From a candidate division WOR-3 bacterium (GTDB taxonomy: Bacteria; Hydrothermota; Tepidihabitantia; Tepidihabitantales; Tepidihabitantaceae): a stretch of DNA of 64,000 bases. Below, in pieces: positions 19,714-57,295 of this stretch. Numbering within the stretch: position 1 is the first letter of the stretch; every line of letters begins with the position of its first letter. The notes under the pieces are model-generated. The model saw nothing but the letters and a program-made list of their open reading frames with translations, was not told the origin of the DNA and did not search any database. The DNA is taken from positions 952,576 through 1,016,575 of the forward strand of contig JANLFQ010000001.1 of NCBI GenBank assembly GCA_024653355.1, given 5' to 3'. The position numbers and the translations under genes are program-made.

Positions 19714-19784
19714 AATTTTCAAAGTTCAACAATTATACGATTAAATTTTCTTCTGTCAACAACTAACCACAAAAGCATTACGCC

Positions 19785-29700: not shown

Positions 29701-30282
29701 TCGGGTCAAATCTGCTTGCGTCAACTCCAGTTTGCGCTGACACTCCTCCTTGGCATCCCGGAACTTTGCCAGCGATGCCGCCTCCTCAAACATCTTCCGG
29801 ATATTACCGGCGATTATCTCCCTCATCTGGCGTAGGTCAAATATCGAATACGCCTTGGTACCAATACCCTGGGAAAGAAACAGGTCCTGAATATCACGCA
29901 ACCGGCAGGGTTGGCGATTCAGATAGTACTCGCTTTCCCCGGAACGGAAAAAACGCCGCCGGATTTCCACCTCGGCAAGACCCTCACCCTGCCACCAGGT
30001 GCTGCCCAACTCCGGCCGGTCTTCAGTGGAAAGCAAGAGTTTAACCTCGGCGTAGTTCACCGCCGGTGCGGTTGCCGTTCCGGCAAAAATCAAATCCTCG
30101 GTTTTCCCGCAGCGCAAAACTGAAAACGACTGCTCGCCCAGCACCCAGCGCAGCGCATCAAGGATGTTGGATTTTCCGCAGCCGTTAGGTCCGACAATAC
30201 AATTTAAGCCCGGCGCAAACCGGACAGTTGTTTTCTCCTGAAACGACTTGAAGCCAAAAATCTGCAGTTCTTTTATGTACAC
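26740..30282 (-). CDS. smc: Chromosome condensation ATPase SMC
   Basis: 1180 aa starting at GTG 30282. N-terminal Walker A 'GPNGCGKSN', two long coiled-coil arms (about 165-500 and 660-1000), a hinge at about 510-640, and C-terminal Walker B 'FCFLDEVDAPLDD'. The ABC signature reads 'QLSDGEKALLA' instead of the usual LSGGEKALTA. It organises the nucleoid with ScpA/ScpB, which are not in the window. No Shine-Dalgarno site is visible; the promoter places the transcript start about 4 nt before the GTG. ftsY follows directly. Confidence 0.97.
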   Translation of the reverse strand: MYIKELQIFGFKSFQEKTTVRFAPGLNCIVGPNGCGKSNILDALRWVLGEQSFSVLRCGKTEDLIFAGTATAPAVNYAEVKLLLSTEDRPELGSTWWQGEGLAEVEIRRRFFRSGESEYYLNRQPCRLRDIQDLFLSQGIGTKAYSIFDLRQMREIIAGNIRKMFEEAASLAKFRDAKEECQRKLELTQADLTRLEDIIAERERIVRSLQRQAGKLRAFQRLKEEEKGLRLIELKRNYERLTDELEQVRSQVAALEQSEAERLAEIKRLEEELRGLHSRLLDVEGDRERALGAVQRQREMIAEIEKEAAMEQQELTFLNQRAAEARLIQTQLEEDGARLEQLFARTVQQLEERNRRLDEIRAELEKARLQTRAQEEQLYRLQEEERNARARLQALLEEEQKLRNDRAKAEAELENTTGAQERVKQELTLLDERIGQVEKELTELHSEVAEAREAKRSLQNRVAALSAELKAVNDRLEEKKKTRMVLQDEKGRLEQELAALAARFAREETGVAKGVFGAEETAEVGKFLEPMPGWERTCEAAFFPLLDFIFCADVGARHLATLEANAVKLRIGFLVDQQATELDDKSEGLIKDERVLGMLADFVQIKPGAPKLLSRIARSFVVVKDRQALEELRAKFPHRFFVTQDGVAWFGDGRLVFVGSVASRLGLGREIAEKERRLTEIREEMERLNAAETAEEQRKTQLLREREEVESQSVVLEKEQIRAESKLGMNQTLQAELQRDRERLRKEAARLEGIQQRLAEKMQEINERLANVSQTISSAKGELERLEKAVGEGTAVVKKGLEQASQLLAAVGEEQRHIERLEVESGHIRQEIEMKRHQINEARQIIEGAEAKRKSAAVKEQERQETIERLRRELQALEQELESFSTQEIARAEEALEKNIAELRQHQEQNQRVLFERRLRIAELESRIKTVVEEAQTSYQTDITTFVPEAVEGFEERLQKVRHRIEALGQVNPLALTEYEEERKDLERLLFQRNDVMQARENLQQALLEIDRHAREQFIATYQEVRTEFQKIFKELFLEGEADLILVNDSNPLESEVAIIAKPRGKNPKRLEQLSDGEKALLAVSLLFAFYQVKPAPFCFLDEVDAPLDDVNVARFADYLKRLSERTQVIVITHNRATVERADVLLGVTAEVPGVSKVVAVSLAEYRAKDNKAPEQRAQN

Positions 30283-30320
30283 TTAACTGTAAAATATATT
30301 CTACCTTATTAATTAGTCAA
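30282..30320 (-). promoter_or_regulatory. smc promoter, near-leaderless
   Basis: -35 TTGACT (30320-30315), 16-nt spacer, -10 TATATT (30298-30293). Predicted +1 about 30286, leaving a leader of about 4 nt before GTG 30282. It begins directly after the terminator of the Spy operon. Confidence 0.6.
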
Positions 30321-36646: not shown

Positions 36647-36676
36647 ATTATAAACTGTAACAGTCCCTCTTGTCAA
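36647..36676 (-). promoter_or_regulatory. Promoter of the macro-domain operon with dyad operator
   Basis: -35 TTGACA (36676-36671), 18-nt spacer, -10 TATAAT (36652-36647). The leader is about 34 nt with a weak AAAGGGA site. The spacer contains the perfect dyad ACTGT-T-ACAGT (36664-36654), well placed for a repressor to block polymerase. Its regulator is unknown. Confidence 0.65.
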
Positions 36677-38565: not shown

Positions 38566-40844
38566 GTCTCTTTCTTTGGCTCGGCTGGGCGCTCCTTTCA
38601 TTTGCCGGGCCAGGAATCGTTAAAACGCAGAGCGCCGCAACCTTTACACCGGAGCCTTATGCCTCAGCTGGTGAGATTCGTTTCGCCAATGGCACCGTTT
38701 TAAGAATTAACCAGACCGAACCGAACCACGAAAAGAACAGCACCCGCTACTGGCTAATCCACTTTTCTCAGCCCGTCCGAAAGGAGATGCTGGATTATTT
38801 ACACAGCCTCGGGCTGGAGCCGGTCTGTTACATCGCTTATCAGACGGTCGTTTGTCGAAATTCAACCACCGTTTCCGTTCCCGCCTTACTCCCCCGGCTC
38901 AAAGGATATTCTGTTGACTGGGCAGGACCATTTCTGCCCGAATACAAGATGAGCCCGGATGTCACACCATCAACCGAATTTAGCGAACTCGCCTTTGCCC
39001 TCTGGCGCCCAAAACAGAACCTGTTGAAACTGTCAAACCTGAACGCCGGTCAACTAACCGAACTTGATGAAGTCAACTGGGTTGAGCGCCGGCACCGGTT
39101 TGAACCTTTTAACCGTGATGTTCAATGGGTGGTGCAAACCGGCTGGGACTCACTGGGCCCAGTTGAACCCAATAACAACTTTCGCCGCTTCTGGAATGCC
39201 GGGCTACGTGGTCAGGGTATAATTGTCGGGCTGTTTGATTCAGGAATAAACACCGAGCACGATATGTTTCGCGACCCCTGGGTACCATTAGAAATGCCGG
39301 GCATCTATCTCAACCACCGTAAAATTGTCGCCTATAAACTGTTCCGCAACGCCGCCTTTGGTGACCCGAGTGCCGTAGTCTATCACGGCTCGGCGGTTGC
39401 AGGAACGCTTGCCGGCAACGACTCTTTGTGCGGCAATTTAAGCGACCTCGACGGTGTCGCACCCGATGCCCGCATCTACTTCCTTGATATCGCTACCGCC
39501 AGTGGCCAGTACATTTTTGATAACGATATGACCGAAATGCTGGACTCAATCCGGCTCAGTTATGGCATGCCCGAACCGGTGCGCCAGGTATCCGGCTCTT
39601 TCGGCTCAATGGACCAGACGGGTTACTATACGCTTGCCGATGCGACCCTTGATGCGGTCACCTGGCAGGACAAAAATTTTCTTGTTGTCTGGGCAGCAGG
39701 TAATGGCGCCGGCACTCAGTATCGGATTGGCCACCCCGCCTGTGCGAAAAACTGCCTCACGGTCGGCGGCTCCGGTAACGGCACAAGAAGCAATTTGATT
39801 TACTCCCTTTCTTCTGCCGGTCCAACCCGGGACTTAAGAATCAAACCCAACCTTGTCGCGCCCGCGGACAGCATCTACACCGTTTACGGTGCCGGCATCA
39901 ACACCTATCGCGTCCGCGCCGGCACCAGTTTTGCCGCTCCGGCGGTCAGCGCCGCCCTGACTTTACTCCGTCAGTACCTCAAAGAGGGCTGGTATCCGTC
40001 CGGAAAACCGGACCCAAAAAGGTCACTTGTTGCGCCCAGTGCCGCACTGATGCGCGCCCTTGCCATCTGTGCTACCGACACCGATGTCGGCGCGGGCACA
40101 ATTCCGGACAACAGAACCGGCTGGGGCAGGCTCAACCTGTCCCGGATTATGCATCTACCGGACGACTCAATCGCCTTCACCTTTGTTGACGACTCAATCG
40201 GGTTAGAAACCGGGCAGTTTGATGAGTACGAAATTGTCCTCGACCGCAGGGAGCCGTTGTTCATCACCCTTGCCTGGACCGACACCGCGGCGCTGCCTGC
40301 GGCTGAAATCGCCCTGGTCAACGACCTGAACTTAGAGGCGATAAGCCCGGACGGCAACCGTTATCGGGGCAATCAACTTTACCTCAATCAATCAATGCCC
40401 AACCCGGGTGAATGGGACGAAAGGAATGTCGAAGAGGTGATTCGCATCGCCCATCCGCTCCCCGGAACCTGGAAGGTACGCATTTATGCCCGTAATGTTT
40501 ACACCCCGCGCCAGCCTTACGCGCTGGTAATCAGGGGCGGCATTCAGGGCTTACCAATCGGAATCTCGGAACATTTTCCGCCCCTTAGGGCAAAACTATC
40601 GCCTGACCTGTACCCCGGTTTACAAAACAGCCGGCGCTCTTTTTTGATTGTGCCACCCAACAGCGTAATACGGGTGTGGAGTTCGGATGGCAGGCAGGTT
40701 GTCCGCCTTGCTTCTCAACACCGGCCATTTGCCTGGCACTATACCGACCGCACCGGGAAAAAACTGCCCGCTGGCGTTTATCTCTATCAAATCGAAGGTT
40801 TGCATACAGGTTCGCACCAGGGAAAAGTTGTCCTTATCAGGTAA
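38562..40844 (+). CDS. Second secreted subtilisin-like (S8) protease with sorting tail
   Basis: 760 aa starting at GTG 38562, overlapping the aminotransferase stop (GTGA). Signal peptide about 1-16; propeptide-like region to about 190. Catalytic Asp226 ('GLFDSGINTEHDMF'), His275 ('YHGSAVAGTLAG'), Asn381 ('AAGNGAG') and Ser456 ('AGTSFAAPAV') are intact. A P-domain-like beta region follows (about 540-660), then a FlgD-type tail ending 'LPAGVYLYQIEG...KVVLIR' without a clear PNPF motif. It differs in architecture from the subtilase at 20382. Coupling to cytoplasmic enzymes is unusual. Its last 8 nt overlap the convergent Lrp-like gene. Confidence 0.92.
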   Translation: MSLFLWLGWALLSFAGPGIVKTQSAATFTPEPYASAGEIRFANGTVLRINQTEPNHEKNSTRYWLIHFSQPVRKEMLDYLHSLGLEPVCYIAYQTVVCRNSTTVSVPALLPRLKGYSVDWAGPFLPEYKMSPDVTPSTEFSELAFALWRPKQNLLKLSNLNAGQLTELDEVNWVERRHRFEPFNRDVQWVVQTGWDSLGPVEPNNNFRRFWNAGLRGQGIIVGLFDSGINTEHDMFRDPWVPLEMPGIYLNHRKIVAYKLFRNAAFGDPSAVVYHGSAVAGTLAGNDSLCGNLSDLDGVAPDARIYFLDIATASGQYIFDNDMTEMLDSIRLSYGMPEPVRQVSGSFGSMDQTGYYTLADATLDAVTWQDKNFLVVWAAGNGAGTQYRIGHPACAKNCLTVGGSGNGTRSNLIYSLSSAGPTRDLRIKPNLVAPADSIYTVYGAGINTYRVRAGTSFAAPAVSAALTLLRQYLKEGWYPSGKPDPKRSLVAPSAALMRALAICATDTDVGAGTIPDNRTGWGRLNLSRIMHLPDDSIAFTFVDDSIGLETGQFDEYEIVLDRREPLFITLAWTDTAALPAAEIALVNDLNLEAISPDGNRYRGNQLYLNQSMPNPGEWDERNVEEVIRIAHPLPGTWKVRIYARNVYTPRQPYALVIRGGIQGLPIGISEHFPPLRAKLSPDLYPGLQNSRRSFLIVPPNSVIRVWSSDGRQVVRLASQHRPFAWHYTDRTGKKLPAGVYLYQIEGLHTGSHQGKVVLIR

Positions 40845-41754
40845 GGGAAACGACATTTTTTACCCACCGGTCATTGATGATTATCTCCCGATTGTGAACG
40901 ACCCCGGCAACACGCACCCCGTTAATTTTGTCAAGAAACGACACCCGATCTAATAGGTCGGCAACACCCCAGACATCGGACTCAACCTCAACATAGCGCC
41001 GATTGCCCGTCCTGCCCCCAAACACAAGTTCAAAACCCTGTCCGGCAATCATCTTTTCGAGCAGTTCCGGCTTGAGACCGGTTTCAAGCAGAAAATGGAA
41101 ATGGCCAAAGTTGGCACAGCGACTCCAGTCAATACTCGGTTGCATCCGGAAGATTCCCGAAGGGTTGTTTCGCGACCAGTACAGACGGGAGATTTTAGCC
41201 TTGACCCAGTTGTCACTCTGCCCGAATGCCCGGGCAATTTCCCCCGGGGGGAGAGTTGGGTTCTGATAGAGGAACTGCAGAAACGCCCGCTCCTCGCGTG
41301 ACAGCGGCATGGAGACCGGAAATGTGTACTCCTCCACCCGAAAAACCTCAACCTCAGATGTGGGGCTAAAGGTCTGGATGAATCGGGTTTCATTCTTAAA
41401 ATCCCGCGAGTAAAATATCAATGCCAGGCTGTGGCCAATACCCGATGGAAGCGAGGTGTTGATAAAAATTTCCGTAACAAATGGCAGTCGGCTGACGATG
41501 TCTTCGGCAAGTGAAATGGGGTCATCACTTTTAACCTGCAAAGCCGCCATCACCCAGTTTCCCCCTAAAAGCGGCGGTACAACCAGCGTCAGGTGGAACG
41601 ACCGAATCAAGCCCCCCTGCAGCAGCTGCTCGAGCCGTCGCCTGTACTCCGCTTCGTCCAATCCTGCCGGACTTAAATCCGCCTCTTCGGGAAACCATCC
41701 CCGGACCTCGGCAATTCTGAGCACCTTTAGGTCTGCCGGCTCAAGCACAATCAT
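40837..41754 (-). CDS. Two-unit Lrp/AsnC-like regulator
   Basis: 305 aa. Two successive modules of winged helix plus ferredoxin-like domain: the first at about 1-140 ('DLKVLRIAEVRGWFPEEADL') and the second at about 150-305 ('SREERAFLQFLYQNPTLPPG', 'EIARAFGQSDNWVKAKISRL'). The second HTH is the better match to Lrp; the first is diverged. It probably binds DNA and responds to an amino acid or other small ligand, but tandem Lrp-like folds also occur in heme-pathway decarboxylases (AhbA/B type), so an enzymatic role is possible. AAAGGAGG precedes the ATG. Confidence 0.7.
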   Translation of the reverse strand: MIVLEPADLKVLRIAEVRGWFPEEADLSPAGLDEAEYRRRLEQLLQGGLIRSFHLTLVVPPLLGGNWVMAALQVKSDDPISLAEDIVSRLPFVTEIFINTSLPSGIGHSLALIFYSRDFKNETRFIQTFSPTSEVEVFRVEEYTFPVSMPLSREERAFLQFLYQNPTLPPGEIARAFGQSDNWVKAKISRLYWSRNNPSGIFRMQPSIDWSRCANFGHFHFLLETGLKPELLEKMIAGQGFELVFGGRTGNRRYVEVESDVWGVADLLDRVSFLDKINGVRVAGVVHNREIIINDRWVKNVVSLT

Positions 41755-41813
41755 CCTGCCTCCTTTTCTTATCTTTCTGTTTTTTTATGTTAACAGCCGC
41801 CTTACTCCGCAAA

Positions 41814-43109
41814 TCAGTATGCGCCCCGCCGGGAAAGAACCGCCGGAACTGTTTTCAAAATTATGACCAAATCGCCGGCAAGCGTCCACTCCCGGACATA
41901 GCGGGTGTCAAGTTTGACCCGCTCCTCATAGCTGGTATCGGTGCGACCGGAAACTTGCCAGAGCCCGGTAAGCCCGGGCGGAACCCGAAACAGGAGCAGC
42001 GAGTAGTCCCGATAGTACTCGACCTCTTTCTCCACAATTGGCCTGGGTCCGACAAGACTCATCTGACCAACAAGGACATTGAACAGTTGGGGCAGTTCGT
42101 CGATGCTGAATTTACGCAGCCAGCGCCCCAACGGCGTAACCCTTGGGTCGTCTTTCAACTTAAAGGTGCGGGCGAACTCCTCCCGCTTTTTCGGGTCACT
42201 TTTTAAAATCTCCTCAAGCCGTTGCCCGGCATCCTTGTACATCGTCCGGAACTTCAATAAATCAAACTCCCGCATATTTCTGCCCAGCCGGCGATGTTTG
42301 TAGAAAACTGGCCCCGGGCTGGTAAGTTTGATTAAGATTGCCACAACCAGCATCGGCAGCGCGAGCAACAACAGAGCAAGCAATGAAATTATCAAATCGA
42401 CGATGCGCTTCAAACGGCGTCCAATACTGTAGGGCACAAATGGTCCAATCGGCCGGGGATGTGGACTGAGAAAATAGGCTGACATCCGAAACGATGGGAT
42501 ACCAACAAAGTCGATAAAATAGCGCGGTGCCACCTGCACAATCAGGTAATCGGTTTTCGGGTCGGTAATGTCAACAACTATCAAATCGACCTTATCAATT
42601 CTCCCCGCTTTATCACTATTTTCCTTCATCCACCGTTCTAAATCTTCAATGAGAATCCGCTCCCGACACTGAAAACCCCACCAGCGCAAAAGCCCGACCT
42701 TATCACTGTTGAAATCGGTCACAAACAGCACCTTCTGGGGTACGAACCAGCGCAGCACAACCCCGATAACCGGAGCGACAAAATTCAGGTAGCACCAGAG
42801 TGCCAGCCAGAACTTTACCGTGAGCGGCTCACACCAGGACCAGAGCGAATGGACAACACTGTAAGCCACATAGGCAAGGGCAAATGCTGCCTGGGTCCGG
42901 ATTGTTAAACCGTAGTTGGCGCGCGCCGTGGACTCAAATTCGCCCACCAGATAACTGGCAAGGGCAAGGAGAAACCAGACAACAACGACGGTGGTGACCC
43001 CGATGGAAAAGGGCACAAAAAGAAGGCGCAGCAGTGCAATGACGATAAAAAGCAGCAGCAGCTCAAGAAAAATTAAAATTGCGTTACTTCGCCCGCTGGC
43101 AAGGTTCAT
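41814..43109 (-). CDS. Polyprenyl-phosphate sugar-phosphate transferase (WbaP/WcaJ type)
   Basis: 431 aa. An N-terminal block of four to five membrane helices (about 10-120) and a soluble CoA-binding-like domain precede the catalytic bacterial-sugar-transferase domain (about 230-431). Signatures: 'RLKRIVDLIISLLALLLLAL', 'LTSPGPVFYKHRRLGRN', 'FDLLKFRTMYKDA', 'ELPQLFNVLVGQMSLVGPRP' and 'GLWQVSGRTD'. It starts surface-polysaccharide synthesis by linking a sugar-1-phosphate to undecaprenyl phosphate at the inner membrane. No other polysaccharide genes are adjacent, so it may serve a dispersed pathway. No convincing promoter was found. Confidence 0.95.
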   Translation of the reverse strand: MNLASGRSNAILIFLELLLLFIVIALLRLLFVPFSIGVTTVVVVWFLLALASYLVGEFESTARANYGLTIRTQAAFALAYVAYSVVHSLWSWCEPLTVKFWLALWCYLNFVAPVIGVVLRWFVPQKVLFVTDFNSDKVGLLRWWGFQCRERILIEDLERWMKENSDKAGRIDKVDLIVVDITDPKTDYLIVQVAPRYFIDFVGIPSFRMSAYFLSPHPRPIGPFVPYSIGRRLKRIVDLIISLLALLLLALPMLVVAILIKLTSPGPVFYKHRRLGRNMREFDLLKFRTMYKDAGQRLEEILKSDPKKREEFARTFKLKDDPRVTPLGRWLRKFSIDELPQLFNVLVGQMSLVGPRPIVEKEVEYYRDYSLLLFRVPPGLTGLWQVSGRTDTSYEERVKLDTRYVREWTLAGDLVIILKTVPAVLSRRGAY

Positions 43110-43135
43110 ACAATCTAATTTCTCGCGCTGCCGCG

Positions 43136-43163
43136 AAAAGCACGGCTGAAGGCATCAGCCGTG
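43136..43163 (-). terminator. Terminator after the bS22-like gene
   Basis: CACGGCTGA-TGCCT-TCAGCCGTG (9-bp stem, 5-nt loop) followed by CTTTTC on the minus strand. It starts 1 nt after the TAA. The short U run makes it moderate. Confidence 0.65.
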
Positions 43164-43164
43164 G

Positions 43165-43260
43165 TTAGCGAATCTTCTTTTTATGACGCAGTGCTTTACG
43201 ACGTTTCTTGTACTTGTGCCGTTTGACTTTCCGTAATTTACGCTTCCGACCGCAGGGCAT
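43165..43260 (-). CDS. 31-aa bS22-like (AURKAIP1/COX24-domain) small basic protein
   Basis: A 31-codon reading frame, ATG 43260 to TAA 43165, encoding a very basic peptide: 'MPCGRKRKLRKVKRHKYKKR' and then 'RKALRHKKKIR'. The K-R-K-x-x-K-x-x-H-K-x-K-K-R pattern is that of the AURKAIP1/COX24 domain, found in mitochondrial mS38 and in bacterial bS22-type ribosomal proteins, notably of Bacteroidetes and Actinobacteria. AAAGGAGTG precedes the ATG and a terminator follows. It probably sits on 16S rRNA of the small subunit. It lies directly after HU, too short for common gene-finder cut-offs. Confidence 0.85.
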   Translation of the reverse strand: MPCGRKRKLRKVKRHKYKKRRKALRHKKKIR

Positions 43261-43280
43261 TAACACTCCTTTTTACTCTG

Positions 43281-43580
43281 TTATTGCACTCCACCTTTCA
43301 TCAAACTTGCCTTCAAAAGACGCGAGGCTTTGAATACCGGTACGCGCCGGGGTGGAATGTTCACCGTCGCCTTTGTCCGCGGATTCCGGGCAACCTTGGG
43401 CTTGCGCAATTTGGTTGACAGGACGCCAAACCCTCTGATTTCTACCCGGTTACCCTCCTGAAGGGCGCGACACAACTCTTCAATAAACAACTGGACAATT
43501 CTACCCACATCGCGCTTGGTAATGTTTGGTGCCATCTGACGGGAGATGGTCTCAACAATGTCGGCTTTAGTTATCGTCAT
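43281..43580 (-). CDS. HU/IHF-family DNA-binding protein
   Basis: 99 aa. The helical N-terminus is 'TKADIVETISRQMAPNITKR' and the beta arm carries 'EIRGFGVLSTKLRKPKVARN' with the 'RNPRTKATVNIPPRRVPVFK' DNA-intercalating tip. It bends DNA and compacts the nucleoid as a homodimer. Whether it is the HU or the IHF subtype cannot be settled from sequence alone. GAGGGTAAG precedes the ATG; it lies between the FmdB-type protein and the bS22-like gene. Confidence 0.96.
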   Translation of the reverse strand: MTITKADIVETISRQMAPNITKRDVGRIVQLFIEELCRALQEGNRVEIRGFGVLSTKLRKPKVARNPRTKATVNIPPRRVPVFKASRLLKASLMKGGVQ

Positions 43581-43592
43581 AATCTTACCCTC

Positions 43593-43814
43593 CTATGAGC
43601 AACTACTGCAATTGTGAGAACTGCAACTACTGCAGCTCTTACTCGCAGACTGAACCTTCTTTTCCGCACCGGCAACACCGAATACGGAAAAAACCTTGGA
43701 AATCTTTTTGCCCCCACAGTTAGGGCACACTAAACCTTTCTCCTCTTCCTCATTCCATAACAGCTCCTCAAATACCTTACCACAGGAGCCGCAACAAAAC
43801 TCTCTAATTGGCAT
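43593..43814 (-). CDS. FmdB-type zinc-ribbon protein
   Basis: 73 aa. The N-terminal zinc ribbon is 'CCGSCGKVFEEL...CPNCGG', the FmdB/CxxC_CxxC_SSSS family pattern, followed by a Ser/Cys tail 'SCSSCSSHNCSSCS'. The tail adds about six cysteines and one histidine, enough for a second metal site. The family was named for formamidase regulation but is now seen as small zinc proteins of unknown role. It heads the operon with HU and the bS22-like gene from a perfect promoter whose +1 coincides with the ATG. Confidence 0.9.
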   Translation of the reverse strand: MPIREFCCGSCGKVFEELLWNEEEEKGLVCPNCGGKKISKVFSVFGVAGAEKKVQSASKSCSSCSSHNCSSCS

Positions 43815-43848
43815 AACTAATTATAAAAATGAGACTTCTAAATGTCAA
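43813..43848 (-). promoter_or_regulatory. Promoter of the FmdB-HU-bS22 operon, predicted leaderless
   Basis: Perfect -35 TTGACA (43848-43843), 17-nt spacer, perfect -10 TATAAT (43825-43820). Only TAGTT separates the -10 from the ATG at 43814, so transcription must start on or next to the start codon. This is the strongest promoter match in the window and the clearest leaderless case with uvrB. The -35 overlaps the 3' end of folC. Confidence 0.85.
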
Positions 43849-45155
43849 GCAATCCGTTTGGCAACCCGGCCCCGGCTTAGAAGAGTTAGCACCTCGCCGG
43901 CAAGGTAAAACGACCCGGCAACAACAATCGGCAACCTGCCGGCGGAAAGCTCCTCGGCCCGTTTGAGCGCCGCCTTCAAATCCGGTGCCGCCTCTGCTAG
44001 AACCCCGAGCCGCCGAAACAATCCTTTCAACACCACCGGGCTCATCGCCCGCGGTGAGTTCGGGGCAACCAAAATTGCCGTATCGGTGTAAGGTGCGAGG
44101 GGCGCTACCGTCTTTTTTACCAGTTTACCGCGCAACGAACCGTAAATTAATACTACCTTGTCTTTTAGGTACTCCCGGATGACACCGGCAAGTGCCGCGC
44201 CCGACTCCGGATTGTGACAAGAGTCAACAATCAAGATCGGATTGGCACGAACAACCTGACAGCGGGCAGGAATTTTAACCTGGGACAAACCTTGCGCCAC
44301 GGGCTCAAATCTAATCCGGTTATCGGTTTTTGCCAAAATCCCGAGTGCGGTTAGCGCTGTCCGACAGTTCTCAATTTGATGCCGGCCTAAAAGATTGAGA
44401 TTGACCCTGCCCCCACCCAGTTCGGTCCAGCAGGAAAAACTGACACCGGGATAAGCGACGCTCTCATCCCAGACCCGTGACCGCTCATCAACCCAGAACG
44501 GTTTTGCACCCACTTTACGGGCTTGAATTTCCAGCTCCTGCCGCGCCTCATTAAATTGCGACCCAATCACCACCGGCTTACCGGTTCGCATTATCCCCGC
44601 CTTTTCCCGGGCGATTTTCCGCAGCGTACCGCCCAGTACCCGAATATGGTCATAACCGATTCTCGTAATCACCGACAGAGCCGGCTCCGACAGATTGGTT
44701 GCATCCAGTCTACCCCCCAGCCCAACCTCAATTACCGCATAATCAACCCGGGTGCGGGCAAAAAAATCGAACGCCATTGCGGTAAGCAGTTCAAAATAAC
44801 TTACCCGCTGACGTTTGAGCAGCGGTTGAAATTTTTCTATTAAACGGGCAAAAACCTTTTTCGTTACCATTTCTCCATTCAGTTGAATCCGTTCCCGAAC
44901 CGAGACAACATGGGGAGAAACAAATAACCCGGTCTGGAGCCCGCAACCCCGCAAACCCGCCTCAATCATATACGCCACCGAACCCTTGCCTTTGGTTCCG
45001 GCAATAAGAATTACATTCTCAATTCGGCTTTGCGGATTCCCGGCAATCTCAAGCAGACGCCGGATGTTATCAAGTTTAAACTCGTTCCGGACCAAAACTT
45101 TCTTTTCGTAATTTATTAGCGAGTCAAGAAACGCCCGTGCCGTTTTATAGGTCAT
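43845..45155 (-). CDS. folC: Folylpolyglutamate synthase / dihydrofolate synthase
   Basis: 436 aa from ATG 45155, which has GAGGTG 7 nt upstream; the longer frame to 45179 lies mostly inside lpxA. Mur-ligase fold: ATP loop 'GTKGKGSVAYMIE', 'SPHVVSVRERIQLNGE', 'VEVGLGGRLDATN' (trimmed from the dihydropteroate-binding region), and 'DSCHNPESGAALAG' in the C-terminal domain. It adds glutamate to dihydropteroate or folates in the cytoplasm. It is the last gene of the long envelope/translation operon. Confidence 0.95.
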   Translation of the reverse strand: MTYKTARAFLDSLINYEKKVLVRNEFKLDNIRRLLEIAGNPQSRIENVILIAGTKGKGSVAYMIEAGLRGCGLQTGLFVSPHVVSVRERIQLNGEMVTKKVFARLIEKFQPLLKRQRVSYFELLTAMAFDFFARTRVDYAVIEVGLGGRLDATNLSEPALSVITRIGYDHIRVLGGTLRKIAREKAGIMRTGKPVVIGSQFNEARQELEIQARKVGAKPFWVDERSRVWDESVAYPGVSFSCWTELGGGRVNLNLLGRHQIENCRTALTALGILAKTDNRIRFEPVAQGLSQVKIPARCQVVRANPILIVDSCHNPESGAALAGVIREYLKDKVVLIYGSLRGKLVKKTVAPLAPYTDTAILVAPNSPRAMSPVVLKGLFRRLGVLAEAAPDLKAALKRAEELSAGRLPIVVAGSFYLAGEVLTLLSRGRVAKRIA

Positions 45156-45930
45156 CCGACACCTCATCAGGACCGGCACGCAACTCTATACCCCGTTTCG
45201 AACGGTAACAGAACTCAAGAAACTCGTTGACCTCATCATCAGCACAACCGGCACGCAGTTCACGCTCAATTTTCCCAAGTGCCTGACTCAAGTTAAGCCC
45301 GGAACGGTATATAATCCGAAACAGTTCGGCAAGGATGGCAATTTTTTCTTGTGCCATTCCGGCGCGTCTTAGTCCCACGAGATTTAAACCGCGAACCCGA
45401 CATGGTCGTCCTGCCGCCAGCACATAAGGCGGGATGTCACGGTTAACATAAGAATGGGCACCAACCATCGCCAGTTTACCTACGCGGCAGAACTGATGAA
45501 CCCCGGTCAATCCCCCAAGATTGGCACCATCTGCCACCTCACTGTAACCGCCCAATTGCACGCCGTTGGTCAGGACGCAGTTGTTGCCCAACCGGCAGTT
45601 ATGGGCAATGTGCACATAGTTCATTATGTAGTTGCCGTCGCCAATCACCGTCATTTTTCCCGCACCACAGGCGCGGTGCACCGTAACATACTCAAAAAAC
45701 ACATTGTTCTGCCCAATCACAACCCCGCTCTCTTCGCCCTGATAAGAACGGTCCATCGGCTCGGTCCCGACAACTACACCGGTACCAAAACGACAACCCG
45801 CACCGACCGTCACCTTACCTTCAAACCGGCAGAAAGGTCCAACTTCGCATCTGGGACCCAACATTACTTCCGTGCCAATGATGGCACTCGGGTGCACTAA
45901 CGGACTGCGCCCATTACCACCGCCTCGCAC
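45145..45930 (-). CDS. lpxA: UDP-N-acetylglucosamine acyltransferase LpxA
   Basis: About 250-261 aa. Left-handed beta helix of hexapeptide repeats with the LpxA core 'YVTVHRACG' and 'IGDGNYIMNYVHIAHNCRLG' (His of 'IAHNC' is the catalytic base position), then a helical C-terminal domain ('IAILAELFRIIYRSGLNLSQ'). It adds the first 3-hydroxyacyl chain in lipid A synthesis. Start is uncertain: GTG 45930 has GGAGC upstream but overlaps fabZ by 34 nt; GTG 45897, joined to the fabZ stop as TAGTG, gives the family-like '(M)HPSAIIG'. Confidence 0.93.
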   Translation of the reverse strand: MRGGGNGRSPLVHPSAIIGTEVMLGPRCEVGPFCRFEGKVTVGAGCRFGTGVVVGTEPMDRSYQGEESGVVIGQNNVFFEYVTVHRACGAGKMTVIGDGNYIMNYVHIAHNCRLGNNCVLTNGVQLGGYSEVADGANLGGLTGVHQFCRVGKLAMVGAHSYVNRDIPPYVLAAGRPCRVRGLNLVGLRRAGMAQEKIAILAELFRIIYRSGLNLSQALGKIERELRAGCADDEVNEFLEFCYRSKRGIELRAGPDEVSDDL

Positions 45931-46319
45931 GCCAGCTCCGTTCCGACAAACACACTGCCCTCAAACTTGTACAAACCGGCTTTTGCTGTAACCAGTCGTA
46001 CCACAATCCGCAACCGTTCTCCAGGGCGAACCACGCGCCGAAACCGCACCCGTTCAATCCCGGCAAAAAGGGTGGTTTTGCCTTTCTTTTCCGGTTCCTT
46101 TACCAGTGCCAGCACAATGCCCGCCTGAGCAATCGCCTCAACCATCAAAACCCCGGGGAGAATCGGATTACCGGGAAAGTGCCCTTGAAAGTAAAACTCA
46201 TCCCCCCTAACATCGCGCCACGCTTCAATCTCATCCGTTTCAAGCCGCTCCACACCATCGATAAACAGAAATGGCTCCCGATGGGGAAGGTACTCCTTAA
46301 CATCTATATCAACTGCCAT
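45897..46319 (-). CDS. fabZ: 3-hydroxyacyl-ACP dehydratase FabZ
   Basis: 140 aa from ATG 46319, which overlaps the lpxC stop (TGATG) and has AAAGGAGG upstream. Hot-dog fold with 'LPHREPFLFIDGV' and 'FQGHFPGNPILPGVLMVEAI'; the His and Glu of these motifs form the active site. It dehydrates 3-hydroxyacyl-ACP in fatty-acid synthesis and so competes with LpxA for substrate. In some bacteria fabZ is fused to lpxC; here the two are separate but overlapping. Confidence 0.96.
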   Translation of the reverse strand: MAVDIDVKEYLPHREPFLFIDGVERLETDEIEAWRDVRGDEFYFQGHFPGNPILPGVLMVEAIAQAGIVLALVKEPEKKGKTTLFAGIERVRFRRVVRPGERLRIVVRLVTAKAGLYKFEGSVFVGTELACEAVVMGAVR

Positions 46320-47134
46320 CAATCCTCCTTTGCCGAAACACGCCATAAGGTGTCAATTAGTAAATGCCTTAACTTATGGACCAGAATAAGGTTTAACCTG
46401 TGCCCGGGATTGAATGCGATGACCTCCGCCTCAAGCCCGCACCCCAGAAGCGACAGGTCACCAAGCAAATCAAGCAGTTTGTGCCGGCACGGCTCGTTTA
46501 AAAACCGTTTTCGCGCCGGAAAAAACCAGCCGTTCACCTCGCGCAATTTAAAACCGATATGACTTTCCACCTGTCGGACATCAAACACCCGCCCGAATGT
46601 CCTGGCGGGCGCAACCTCCCGAATAAAACTACCTGGTGTCACCCGACAGGAAAAAAATTGTTCCGGGACAATGCCCTTCATCCTAAAAAAGACATTCACC
46701 CGCAATCCAGTACCGGGGAGTAAGATGATAAATCGGGCGCCCGACTTCACCGCTACCGGTTTGTTGAGTTTCAACACCCTGCCTTTGATACCCCGCCGCC
46801 GTAAACCCGCTCGCTGTAAAAGCCGGACAAAGTGCCGGGCACTGCCATCGCCCAAAGGGAGCTCATCACCGACAACATCAACCTCGATATCGGTTACGCC
46901 GAGTGCGAAACAACACGAAAGAAAATGTTCAACCATCAGCAGCCGCCTCGTGCCGTTTACCAGGTAAGTGTAACCATCCCTTGCTACGGCATTTTTCCAA
47001 TCGGCTTTAATCACCCGATTAAAAACAATACCTGAACCCGGAACCCCGGGCCGCACTTTCATCATTACCGGTTTATTGGTTACTATTCCCCAGCCCAAAA
47101 TCACGGCATCTTCTCGAATGGTAAACCGGCTCAC
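46319..47134 (-). CDS. lpxC: UDP-3-O-acyl-N-acetylglucosamine deacetylase LpxC
   Basis: 271 aa zinc amidase, the committed step of lipid A synthesis. Zinc-site motifs are present: 'LLMVEHFLS' (His70), 'HKLLDLLGDLSLLG' and a final His in 'GHRLNLILVHKL'. It is a little shorter than the roughly 300-aa E. coli enzyme, mainly in the insert regions. It overlaps both lpxD-like (4 nt) and fabZ (1 nt), so expression is tightly coupled. Confidence 0.93.
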   Translation of the reverse strand: MSRFTIREDAVILGWGIVTNKPVMMKVRPGVPGSGIVFNRVIKADWKNAVARDGYTYLVNGTRRLLMVEHFLSCCFALGVTDIEVDVVGDELPLGDGSARHFVRLLQRAGLRRRGIKGRVLKLNKPVAVKSGARFIILLPGTGLRVNVFFRMKGIVPEQFFSCRVTPGSFIREVAPARTFGRVFDVRQVESHIGFKLREVNGWFFPARKRFLNEPCRHKLLDLLGDLSLLGCGLEAEVIAFNPGHRLNLILVHKLRHLLIDTLWRVSAKED

Positions 47135-55227: not shown

Positions 55228-55262
55228 TTGACCGAAAATTGCTTACCAATACAATGTATCTA
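55228..55262 (+). promoter_or_regulatory. uvrB promoter, predicted leaderless
   Basis: -35 TTGACC (55228-55233), 16-nt spacer, -10 TACAAT (55250-55255, 5 of 6). Only GTATCT separates the -10 from the ATG, so the predicted +1 is exactly the A of the start codon at 55262. Confidence 0.75.
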
Positions 55263-57295
55263 TGAGCAGGGGTTTCAAACTCCGGGCACCATTCAAACCC
55301 GCCGGTGACCAGCCAGAAGCAATCGAACGGCTTGTCCGGTTCATCGAAACCGGCGCCCGCTTCTCCACCCTTTTAGGGGTAACCGGCTCGGGCAAAACCT
55401 TCGTGATGGCAAACTGTATCGCCCGGCTCAACCGTCCCACCATCGTCATTTCCCACAACAAAACCCTTGCCGCCCAGCTCTATGGCGAATTCAAACAGTT
55501 CTTTCCGGAAAATGCGGTAGAGTACTTTATCTCCTATTACGACTACTATCAGCCCGAAGCCTATGTCCCGGAACACGACCTTTATATAGAAAAAGACGCA
55601 TCCATCAATGAAGAAATTGAAAGATTACGACTTCGGGCCACCTCCAGTTTAATCGAACGGCGCGATGTCATTATTGTCGCATCGGTCTCCTGTATCTACA
55701 ACCTCGGTGAGCCCTGGGAGTTCAAAGAGGCCCTTTTCCCAATAGAACTCAACCGGGAGTTAAGCCGGGAAGACCTATTGGAACACCTGGTCAAACTCCA
55801 GTACACTCGCAACGACTTTGAATTAAAAAGGTCCACTTTTCGCGTCCGGGGGGATGTCGTTGAAATCCACCCCTCGCATCGCGACTACGGAGTCCGCTGC
55901 GAGTTTGATGGCGACCGGGTTGCTCGGCTGAGCATCTTTGACATCCTCACCGGGGACTTAATCGAACGCCGGGAACGAGTCGTAATCTACCCCGCAAGGC
56001 ACTTCGTTACCGGAGAGCAACGGGTTGAGCGGGCACTAAAATCTATTGAAGAGGAGCTGCACCAGCGAGTTGTGGAACTGGAAGCCCAGGGCAAACTACT
56101 TGAGGCGCAACGCTTGAAGACCCGCACAAAGTTTGACCTTGAGATGATAAAAGAGTTCGGCTACTGCCCGGGGATTGAAAACTACTCGCGTCACTTTTTA
56201 GGTAAACCACCGGGTGCCAGACCCTACTGTCTCCTTGACTACTTTCCTGCCGACTATCTAATGTTCATTGACGAATCCCATGTAACGGTTCCCCAGATTA
56301 AGGGAATGTTCAACGGCGACCGCGCCCGTAAACAGGTTCTCGTCGATTACGGATTTCGCCTTCCTTCCTGTCTTGACAACCGCCCATTAAGGTTCGACGA
56401 ATTTGAGCAACTAATCAATCAGGTGGTCTTCACCTCCGCAACGCCGGGCGACTATGAACTCACCATAAGTCAGAATCGGGTCGCTGAACTTATTGTTCGG
56501 CCCACCGGACTGGTGGACCCGAAATTAACGGTCAAACCAACCCAAAACCAGATTGACGACCTGATTAACGAAATCCGCATTCGGGTTGGCCGGCAGGAAA
56601 GAGTTCTCGTCACCACTTTAACCAAAAGAATGGCGGAAGACCTTGCCGACTATCTAACCGAAATGGGCATCCGGGTCCGCTATCTTCATTCGGAAATTGA
56701 GCCCATTGAACGAGTTGACATTCTCCGTCGTTTGCGTCTTGGTGAGTTTGATGTTCTAATTGGCATCAACCTATTACGCGAAGGACTGGATTTGCCCGAG
56801 GTGTCCCTTGTTGCTGTGCTTGACGCCGACAAAGAAGGTTTTCTCCGTGACGCCCGTTCCCTGATTCAAACTGCGGGCCGGGCAGCGCGCAATGTCCGGG
56901 GCGAAGTTATCCTCTATGCCGATAACCTCACCCGCTCAATACGCAACGCCCTCGCCGAAACCGAGCGCCGTCGGCAAAAGCAGATTGAGTTCAACAATCT
57001 CCACGGAATCGTGCCGCGCTCAATCGAAAAGACCGCGGCAGAGGTCCGGGAAACCACCGCAGTTGCTGACGCTAAACAGGAAACCGAACCTCTTGAGGAC
57101 GAAAAGTGGCTCGCCGCCGAAGGGAAGAACCCGCTCGAGCTGCTCGCACAACTGGAAAAAGAGATGACCTCGGCGGCACAGGCGCTGGAGTTCGAGAAGG
57201 CAGCAAAACTGCGTGATCGAATCCGGGAACTAAGACAGAAGATTGAAGACGAAGAATGGAAAAAGGCGCGGCGCAAAAGGCTGAAGCGGCGTTAA
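55262..57295 (+). CDS. uvrB: Excinuclease ABC subunit B
   Basis: 677 aa damage-verifying helicase-like subunit of nucleotide excision repair. P-loop '[14 protein letters not shown]', beta-hairpin region '[20 protein letters not shown]', '[20 protein letters not shown]', motif V/VI '[20 protein letters not shown]' and 'QTAGRAARN'. The C-terminal UVR domain ('[19 protein letters not shown]') binds UvrC. Ends overlapping the convergent DUF362 gene by 4 nt. Confidence 0.99.

Follow-up and report, generated by a model that had tools for sequence, protein, structure and literature searches.

In a bacterium of the candidate division WOR-3, the gene fmdB begins directly behind a perfect housekeeping-type promoter, and its translation very probably initiates in a leaderless or nearly leaderless fashion. 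As we picture it from the sequence, RNA polymerase would bind TTGACA-17-TATAAT, a sigma-70-type promoter lying directly on the fmdB start codon, and transcription would most likely set out from the A of the ATG, the sixth base past the -10 element with a T before it, giving a leaderless mRNA on which the ribosome would initiate at the 5'-terminal AUG. The HU-like and bS22-like genes that follow would be translated from the same mRNA by way of their own Shine-Dalgarno (SD) sequences. The source genome is a WOR-3 MAG of 1.88 Mb in 6 contigs (98% complete), and the window is the whole 64,000-nt stretch of it that was analysed. The locus contains the following features, in order of transcription.

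43845..45179, minus strand: folC-like Mur-ligase-family ORF, upstream of fmdB on the same strand (PF08245 and PF02875; FolC is a presumptive name)
43843..43848, minus strand: -35 element TTGACA (TTGACA in 14/15 family fmdB orthologs, TTGACT in 1)
43826..43842, minus strand: promoter spacer of 17 nt, TTTAGAAGTCTCATTTT (17 nt long in 15/15 family orthologs)
43833..43837, minus strand: spacer motif AAGTC (AAGT invariant, then C, G or T; AAGT in 16/16 family promoters), a candidate operator or promoter accessory element
43820..43825, minus strand: -10 element TATAAT (invariant, 15/15 family orthologs)
43815..43819, minus strand: discriminator TAGTT, 5 nt (family form NNNTT; length 5 in 15/15, final TT invariant)
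43812..43814, minus strand: fmdB start codon ATG, predicted leaderless start
43593..43814, minus strand: fmdB, FmdB-family zinc-ribbon protein of 73 aa with a Cys-rich C-terminus (PF09723 2.5e-10, TIGR02605 8.9e-12)
43281..43580, minus strand: HU/IHF-type DNA-binding protein (PF00216 7.7e-25), led by an SD (AGGAGG)
43165..43260, minus strand: bS22-like ribosomal protein of 31 aa (8fmw_V, a 30S ribosomal protein bS22 chain, 2e-5), with an SD-like AAGGAG upstream

The FmdB identity lies above the curated cut-offs of both models (PF09723, 40.6 bits vs 34.4; TIGR02605, 44.9 vs 31.3), and the bS22-like protein had no match by Pfam or NCBIfam models. The HU/IHF-type gene begins twelve bases past the fmdB stop, and the stop codon of the folC-like ORF (TGA, 43847-43845) falls within the -35 element. 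A search for an SD ahead of the fmdB start found none, and the HU and bS22 genes each have an SD-like sequence. The initial annotation saw here its cleanest case for leaderless initiation, driving FmdB, HU and a bS22-like protein; the two genes do follow, but both carry SD-like sequences of their own, so that only fmdB would be leaderless.

On the minus strand, from 43848 to 43820, the promoter scores 12/12 with its hexamers 17 bp apart, within the 16-18 bp of sigma-70 promoters (TTGACA plus TATAAT), and it is the sole site scoring so in 40000-47000. The exact TTGACA-17-TATAAT of the initial annotation and TAGTT as the only sequence between the -10 and the ATG at 43814 are thus both correct, and its range of 43813-43848, which does hold the promoter, begins one base late and should read 43812-43848. 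The window contains 3 perfect matches to TTGACA-N15-19-TATAAT vs 0 in 100 shuffles, and genome-wide there are 40 perfect promoters with 16-18 nt spacers vs 1 match of a reversed control pattern. TATAAT-N4-9-ATG was observed twice in the window vs 1.01 expected. Proximity of a -10 to an ATG is by itself weak evidence; what excludes chance is the presence of the complete promoter and, more than anything, its conservation, in line with the small odds originally claimed. Of the other two perfect promoters of the window, at 19732-19759 and 36647-36676 (minus strand), one lies ahead of a tRNA cluster (L020) and one 40 nt ahead of a macrodomain-like ORF (L021).

On the coding side, the FmdB models of Pfam and NCBIfam align from residue 1, and an N-terminal MPI is invariant in the 15 family orthologs. 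With the 5-nt gap, the TAA within TATAAT closes the fmdB frame three codons ahead of the ATG, so translation of that frame cannot begin further up. A conserved ATG further downstream in homologs, which would have spoken against the assignment, was looked for and not found: 14/15 family orthologs have no Met other than the start, and the fifteenth has one at residue 41. ATG 43814-43812 is, on these sequence grounds, the only plausible fmdB start and a secure assignment.

Across the family (18 genomes), fmdB-type matches were found in 18/18 and a true ortholog in 15 genomes from 7 genera; among the other matches are paralogs that are SD-led, have a leader and lack the promoter arrangement. TATAAT, a 17-nt spacer and a gap of exactly 5 nt with TT next to the ATG are common to all 15 orthologs, while upstream of the promoter 0 of 21 aligned columns are invariant. 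The alignment proposed in the initial annotation therefore finds hexamers and gap kept throughout the family (TTGACA itself in 14/15). The full pattern occurs in 18 of the 147 phylum genomes, once in each, with 0 control matches; these comprise 16 family genomes, G117 (at fmdB, same order) and G041, where it lies at the start of a HAD-type hydrolase and is probably a coincidence. The gap is 5 in 16/16 family promoters, one of which stands without fmdB. That one belongs to G016 (L140, G016:C28:20000-23000), in which promoter, AAGT, TATAAT, 5-nt gap and ATG are intact and fmdB is only a 28-aa ORF, with HU and bS22 intact behind it; G017, of the same genus, has a full fmdB. Since G016 keeps the promoter, HU and bS22 despite its reduced fmdB, we infer that the promoter also serves the downstream genes. 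G006 and G015 were considered as further losses of fmdB and set aside, because both also lack the HU gene and probably reflect missing data or assembly gaps.

For the class, 60 of 62 phylum matches were scored (49 inside the class, 11 outside), leaving out second copies in G002 (L103) and G119 (L104), neither of which shows the promoter. In 46/49 class orthologs the start is preceded, 5-10 nt away, by a promoter scoring 10-12/12, the exceptions being G111, G086 and G087; an SD was sought ahead of all class orthologs and was absent in 49/49. Shuffled sequences reached the real promoter score in 0/300 cases for 45 of the 46 and in 1/300 for the other one. Among the homologs outside the class, the promoter was found in 0/11 and an SD in 5/11. 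The 5-nt gap is fixed within the source family but not across the class, where the 46 gaps measure 5 nt (21), 7 (12), 8 (2), 9 (9) and 10 (2); the other families mostly have 7-10 nt, for which the leader would be 0-4 nt. All 7 fmdB genes of family f6 keep the promoter, 7 nt from the ATG, and neither HU nor bS22 was found within 900 nt downstream of them by regular expression, the HU expression being one that misses divergent HU proteins in f2 and f10.

Within the spacer, in a feature that the initial annotation did not mention, AAGT occupies positions 6-9 in 16/16 family promoters, including that of the genome that lost fmdB; the between-genus identities of positions 1-5 and 11-17 are 0.244 and 0.324. 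The tetramer recurs at the same spacer place in three f3 genomes of the same order. A search for TTGACN6AAGTS-N7-TATNNT gave 18 matches in the 18 family genomes, 15 at fmdB and 3 at other genes. In G015 and G013 (L204 and L207), AAGTG stands at this spacer position in a second promoter, which lies 30 nt before the ATG of an ORF resembling a Mur-ligase-type membrane protein. Coding constraint does not account for AAGT, given that the folC-like ORF of the window ends inside the -35 and leaves the spacer outside that gene; neither is AAGT a general promoter feature, as it is nearly confined to fmdB and missing from the spacers of smpB, nnrD and lexA. Judged by eye, pairing with TTGAC as half of a palindrome (GAC-N8-GTC) works only where the fifth base is C (12/16), and such a palindrome is therefore not what is invariant. 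The most likely role of AAGT is that of a gene-specific operator or an accessory contact. An operator within the fmdB spacer would be plausible because four family lexA-like genes of leaderless type (L224-L227, in G000, G008, G005 and G004) carry the palindrome GAACAATCGTTC, which resembles a LexA box, in the spacer between -35 and -10. A second lexA type in other genera (L228-L237) shows a different layout, in which the palindrome GTAAACATATGTTTAC (or a close form) contains the ATG a few nt past a -10-like TAGCAT or TACTAT, giving the impression of a start codon within the operator.

The fmdB promoter is one of the most tightly fixed leaderless-type cases and not a lone one. At 9 of the 40 perfect promoters, an ORF of 73 aa or more opens with ATG or GTG after a gap of 5-7 nt and has no SD; from their sequences we take these ORFs to include smpB, lexA, nnrD and a type IV pilin. 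A tRNA gene lies just downstream at 5 of the 40 loci and tmRNA at 1. Counted over 464 kb of G000 ahead of starts followed by 80 or more open codons, strong promoters are most frequent at a gap of 6 (5, 12, 5, 5 and 3 at gaps 5-9) over a comparison level averaging about 1.3 per gap at gaps 11-40. By crude gene calling (longest ORFs of at least 100 aa), which makes the fractions rough, 30/371 ORFs of G000 have a strong promoter at gap 5-10 vs 4-10 in six control ranges, and the signal is weak in the GC-rich relative G003 (62% GC; 9/327 ORFs vs 3-5 in controls). Like fmdB, the family's smpB, lexA and nnrD have TTGACx-16/17-TATAAT beside the start and no SD. For smpB (L191 in G000), 10 of the 14 family orthologs compared place the GTG exactly 6 nt behind TATAAT, again leaderless-type; L210 and L215 are out of register (contig edges) and count as misses, L214 and L218 have no site, and L222 and L223 were not among the 14. 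Unlike fmdB, none of the three has AAGT, the nnrD gap drifts (5-13 nt in the family), and the lexA spacers carry GAACAATCGTTC, the count of four covering the closest lexA homologs, with those of a different type left out. The window holds two further starts of similar appearance, namely a uvrB-like ORF at 55250-55264 (plus strand; TTGACC-16-TACAAT, a 6-nt gap, GTATCT, to the ATG, no SD), a uvrB-like start in G003 (L177) likewise having a promoter 6 nt away, and an SMC-like ORF at 30280-30298 (minus strand; TTGACT-16-TATATT, a 10-nt gap to GTG, no SD).

The initial annotation allowed no 5' leader at all; leaderless or near-leaderless initiation is still the best reading, but a length of zero does not follow of necessity, for E. 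coli rules would put the usual start on the U of the AUG. The A of the ATG is position 6 after the -10 in the source family, an offset that the initial annotation did not remark on, and E. coli polymerase prefers position 7, with positions 6, 7, 8 and 9 used at 3, 70, 23 and 4% at one promoter in PMC5730371. By analogy, at a gap of 5 an E. coli-like enzyme could begin at U7 or G8, and the AUG would then be lost. In family f1, T precedes the A in 16/16, and positions 4-7 contain no purine other than that A. In f10 promoters with gaps of 8-9, position 7 is a purine in 10/11, which fits a leader of 2-3 nt; in f6, there is a pyrimidine at position 7 in 7/7, and the A of the ATG is position 8. Several further points count against the leaderless reading: the other leaderless-type genes of the genome peak at a gap of 6, not 5; read-through from the folC-like ORF, which runs into the -35, could also carry fmdB; three of the 49 class orthologs lack the arrangement; and the genome-wide signal is weak in G003. 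A 70S route for translation from a 5'-terminal AUG is described in PMC9031893.

The short gap lends itself to another explanation, in which the choice of start site across the start codon sets fmdB output: starts at A6 would give a translatable AUG, whereas starts at U7 or G8 would break it and still allow expression of HU and bS22, and the point of preserving the 5-nt gap would be to keep FmdB scarce or to tie it to ATP/GTP levels. We consider this unlikely. The gap of 5 in every family promoter, one base under the genome's modal 6, the E. coli usage figures above and the presence of an SD before every later gene of the locus agree with it, but a gap of 5 is also found at 3 of the 9 perfect promoters that precede a leaderless-type gene, and related families mostly have 7-10 nt, so that such a switch would operate in few families only. 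U is, moreover, a poor initiating base, and figures from E. coli may not hold for the WOR-3 polymerase. An extension of the same idea, to which we give similarly little credence, would make the family promoter a compact regulator over the start codon, combining AAGT as the operator of a dedicated factor with the 5-nt gap and letting the choice of A6 vs U7 or G8 set the ratio of FmdB to HU/bS22; it arises because U7 or G8 starts in f1 would destroy the AUG.

It is more doubtful still that the promoter, though real, serves mainly HU and bS22, with fmdB translated chiefly from folC read-through and without an SD. In favour of this, the folC-like ORF shares the strand of fmdB and reaches into the -35, and in G016 the promoter survives with fmdB cut to 28 aa and HU and bS22 intact. 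Yet all 7 f6 fmdB genes keep the promoter with no HU or bS22 detected by regular expression within 900 nt, a promoter for HU only has no reason to hold a fixed distance to the fmdB ATG, and a read-through transcript would have no SD. That the whole arrangement is a chance match or rests on a mis-assigned start codon is a negligible prospect: roughly one occurrence of TATAAT-N4-9-ATG by itself is to be expected in the window, but none of the 100 shuffles gave the promoter, class-wide conservation contradicts a chance match, and the upstream in-frame stop together with the lack of any other Met in 14/15 orthologs contradicts a mis-assigned start.

Leaderless genes with a closely placed -10 are known from other bacteria. 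Zheng et al. (2011; PMC3160421) describe leaderless genes of bacteria whose start is preceded, at a distance of about 12 bp, by a -10-like signal (TANNNT/TATAAT), and the WOR-3 fmdB resembles them in having its -10 just before the start codon and no SD. Their scheme allows the A of TATAAT to stand 8-14 bases ahead of the transcript start, and in WOR-3 fmdB it stands 10 before the A of the ATG. Unlike the genes described there, fmdB has a full -35, a 17-nt spacer and an extra conserved spacer tetramer. In Deinococcus-Thermus, an ORF-adjacent -10 motif sets the -10 box a few bp ahead of the ORF of a leaderless mRNA, and in Deinococcus the addition of a -35 at 17 bp raised expression (PMC12340547). 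As reported there, most Deinococcus genes with this motif have no classical -35 and their -10 is TANNNT, whereas the WOR-3 fmdB has TATAAT and a perfect -35 that is conserved in 14/15 family orthologs. In -10 placement (gap 5), lack of an SD and assignment of the start codon, fmdB thus has the marks of a leaderless gene, and with its perfect -35 it falls outside the Deinococcus type, defined by promoters mostly without a classical -35. No literature on leaderless initiation in WOR-3 or for FmdB was found in the library searched; the mode itself is already known in bacteria, and the WOR-3 lineage is apparently unreported for it.

Gene callers that rely on SD sequences may misplace the starts of leaderless genes like fmdB. 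With ATG, -10, -35 and gap known to the base, the locus offers a clean natural test of the limits that start-site selection and leaderless translation set on one another, and the spacer element AAGT and the fixed gap, one base short, are features that can be tested directly. From the invariance of AAGT one would expect a regulator, or a contact with the promoter, that has so far escaped recognition. Finally, the distance from promoter to codon at fmdB is fixed over 7 genera and the promoter is kept across most of the class, indicating that leaderless expression is an old, selected feature of this uncultured phylum.
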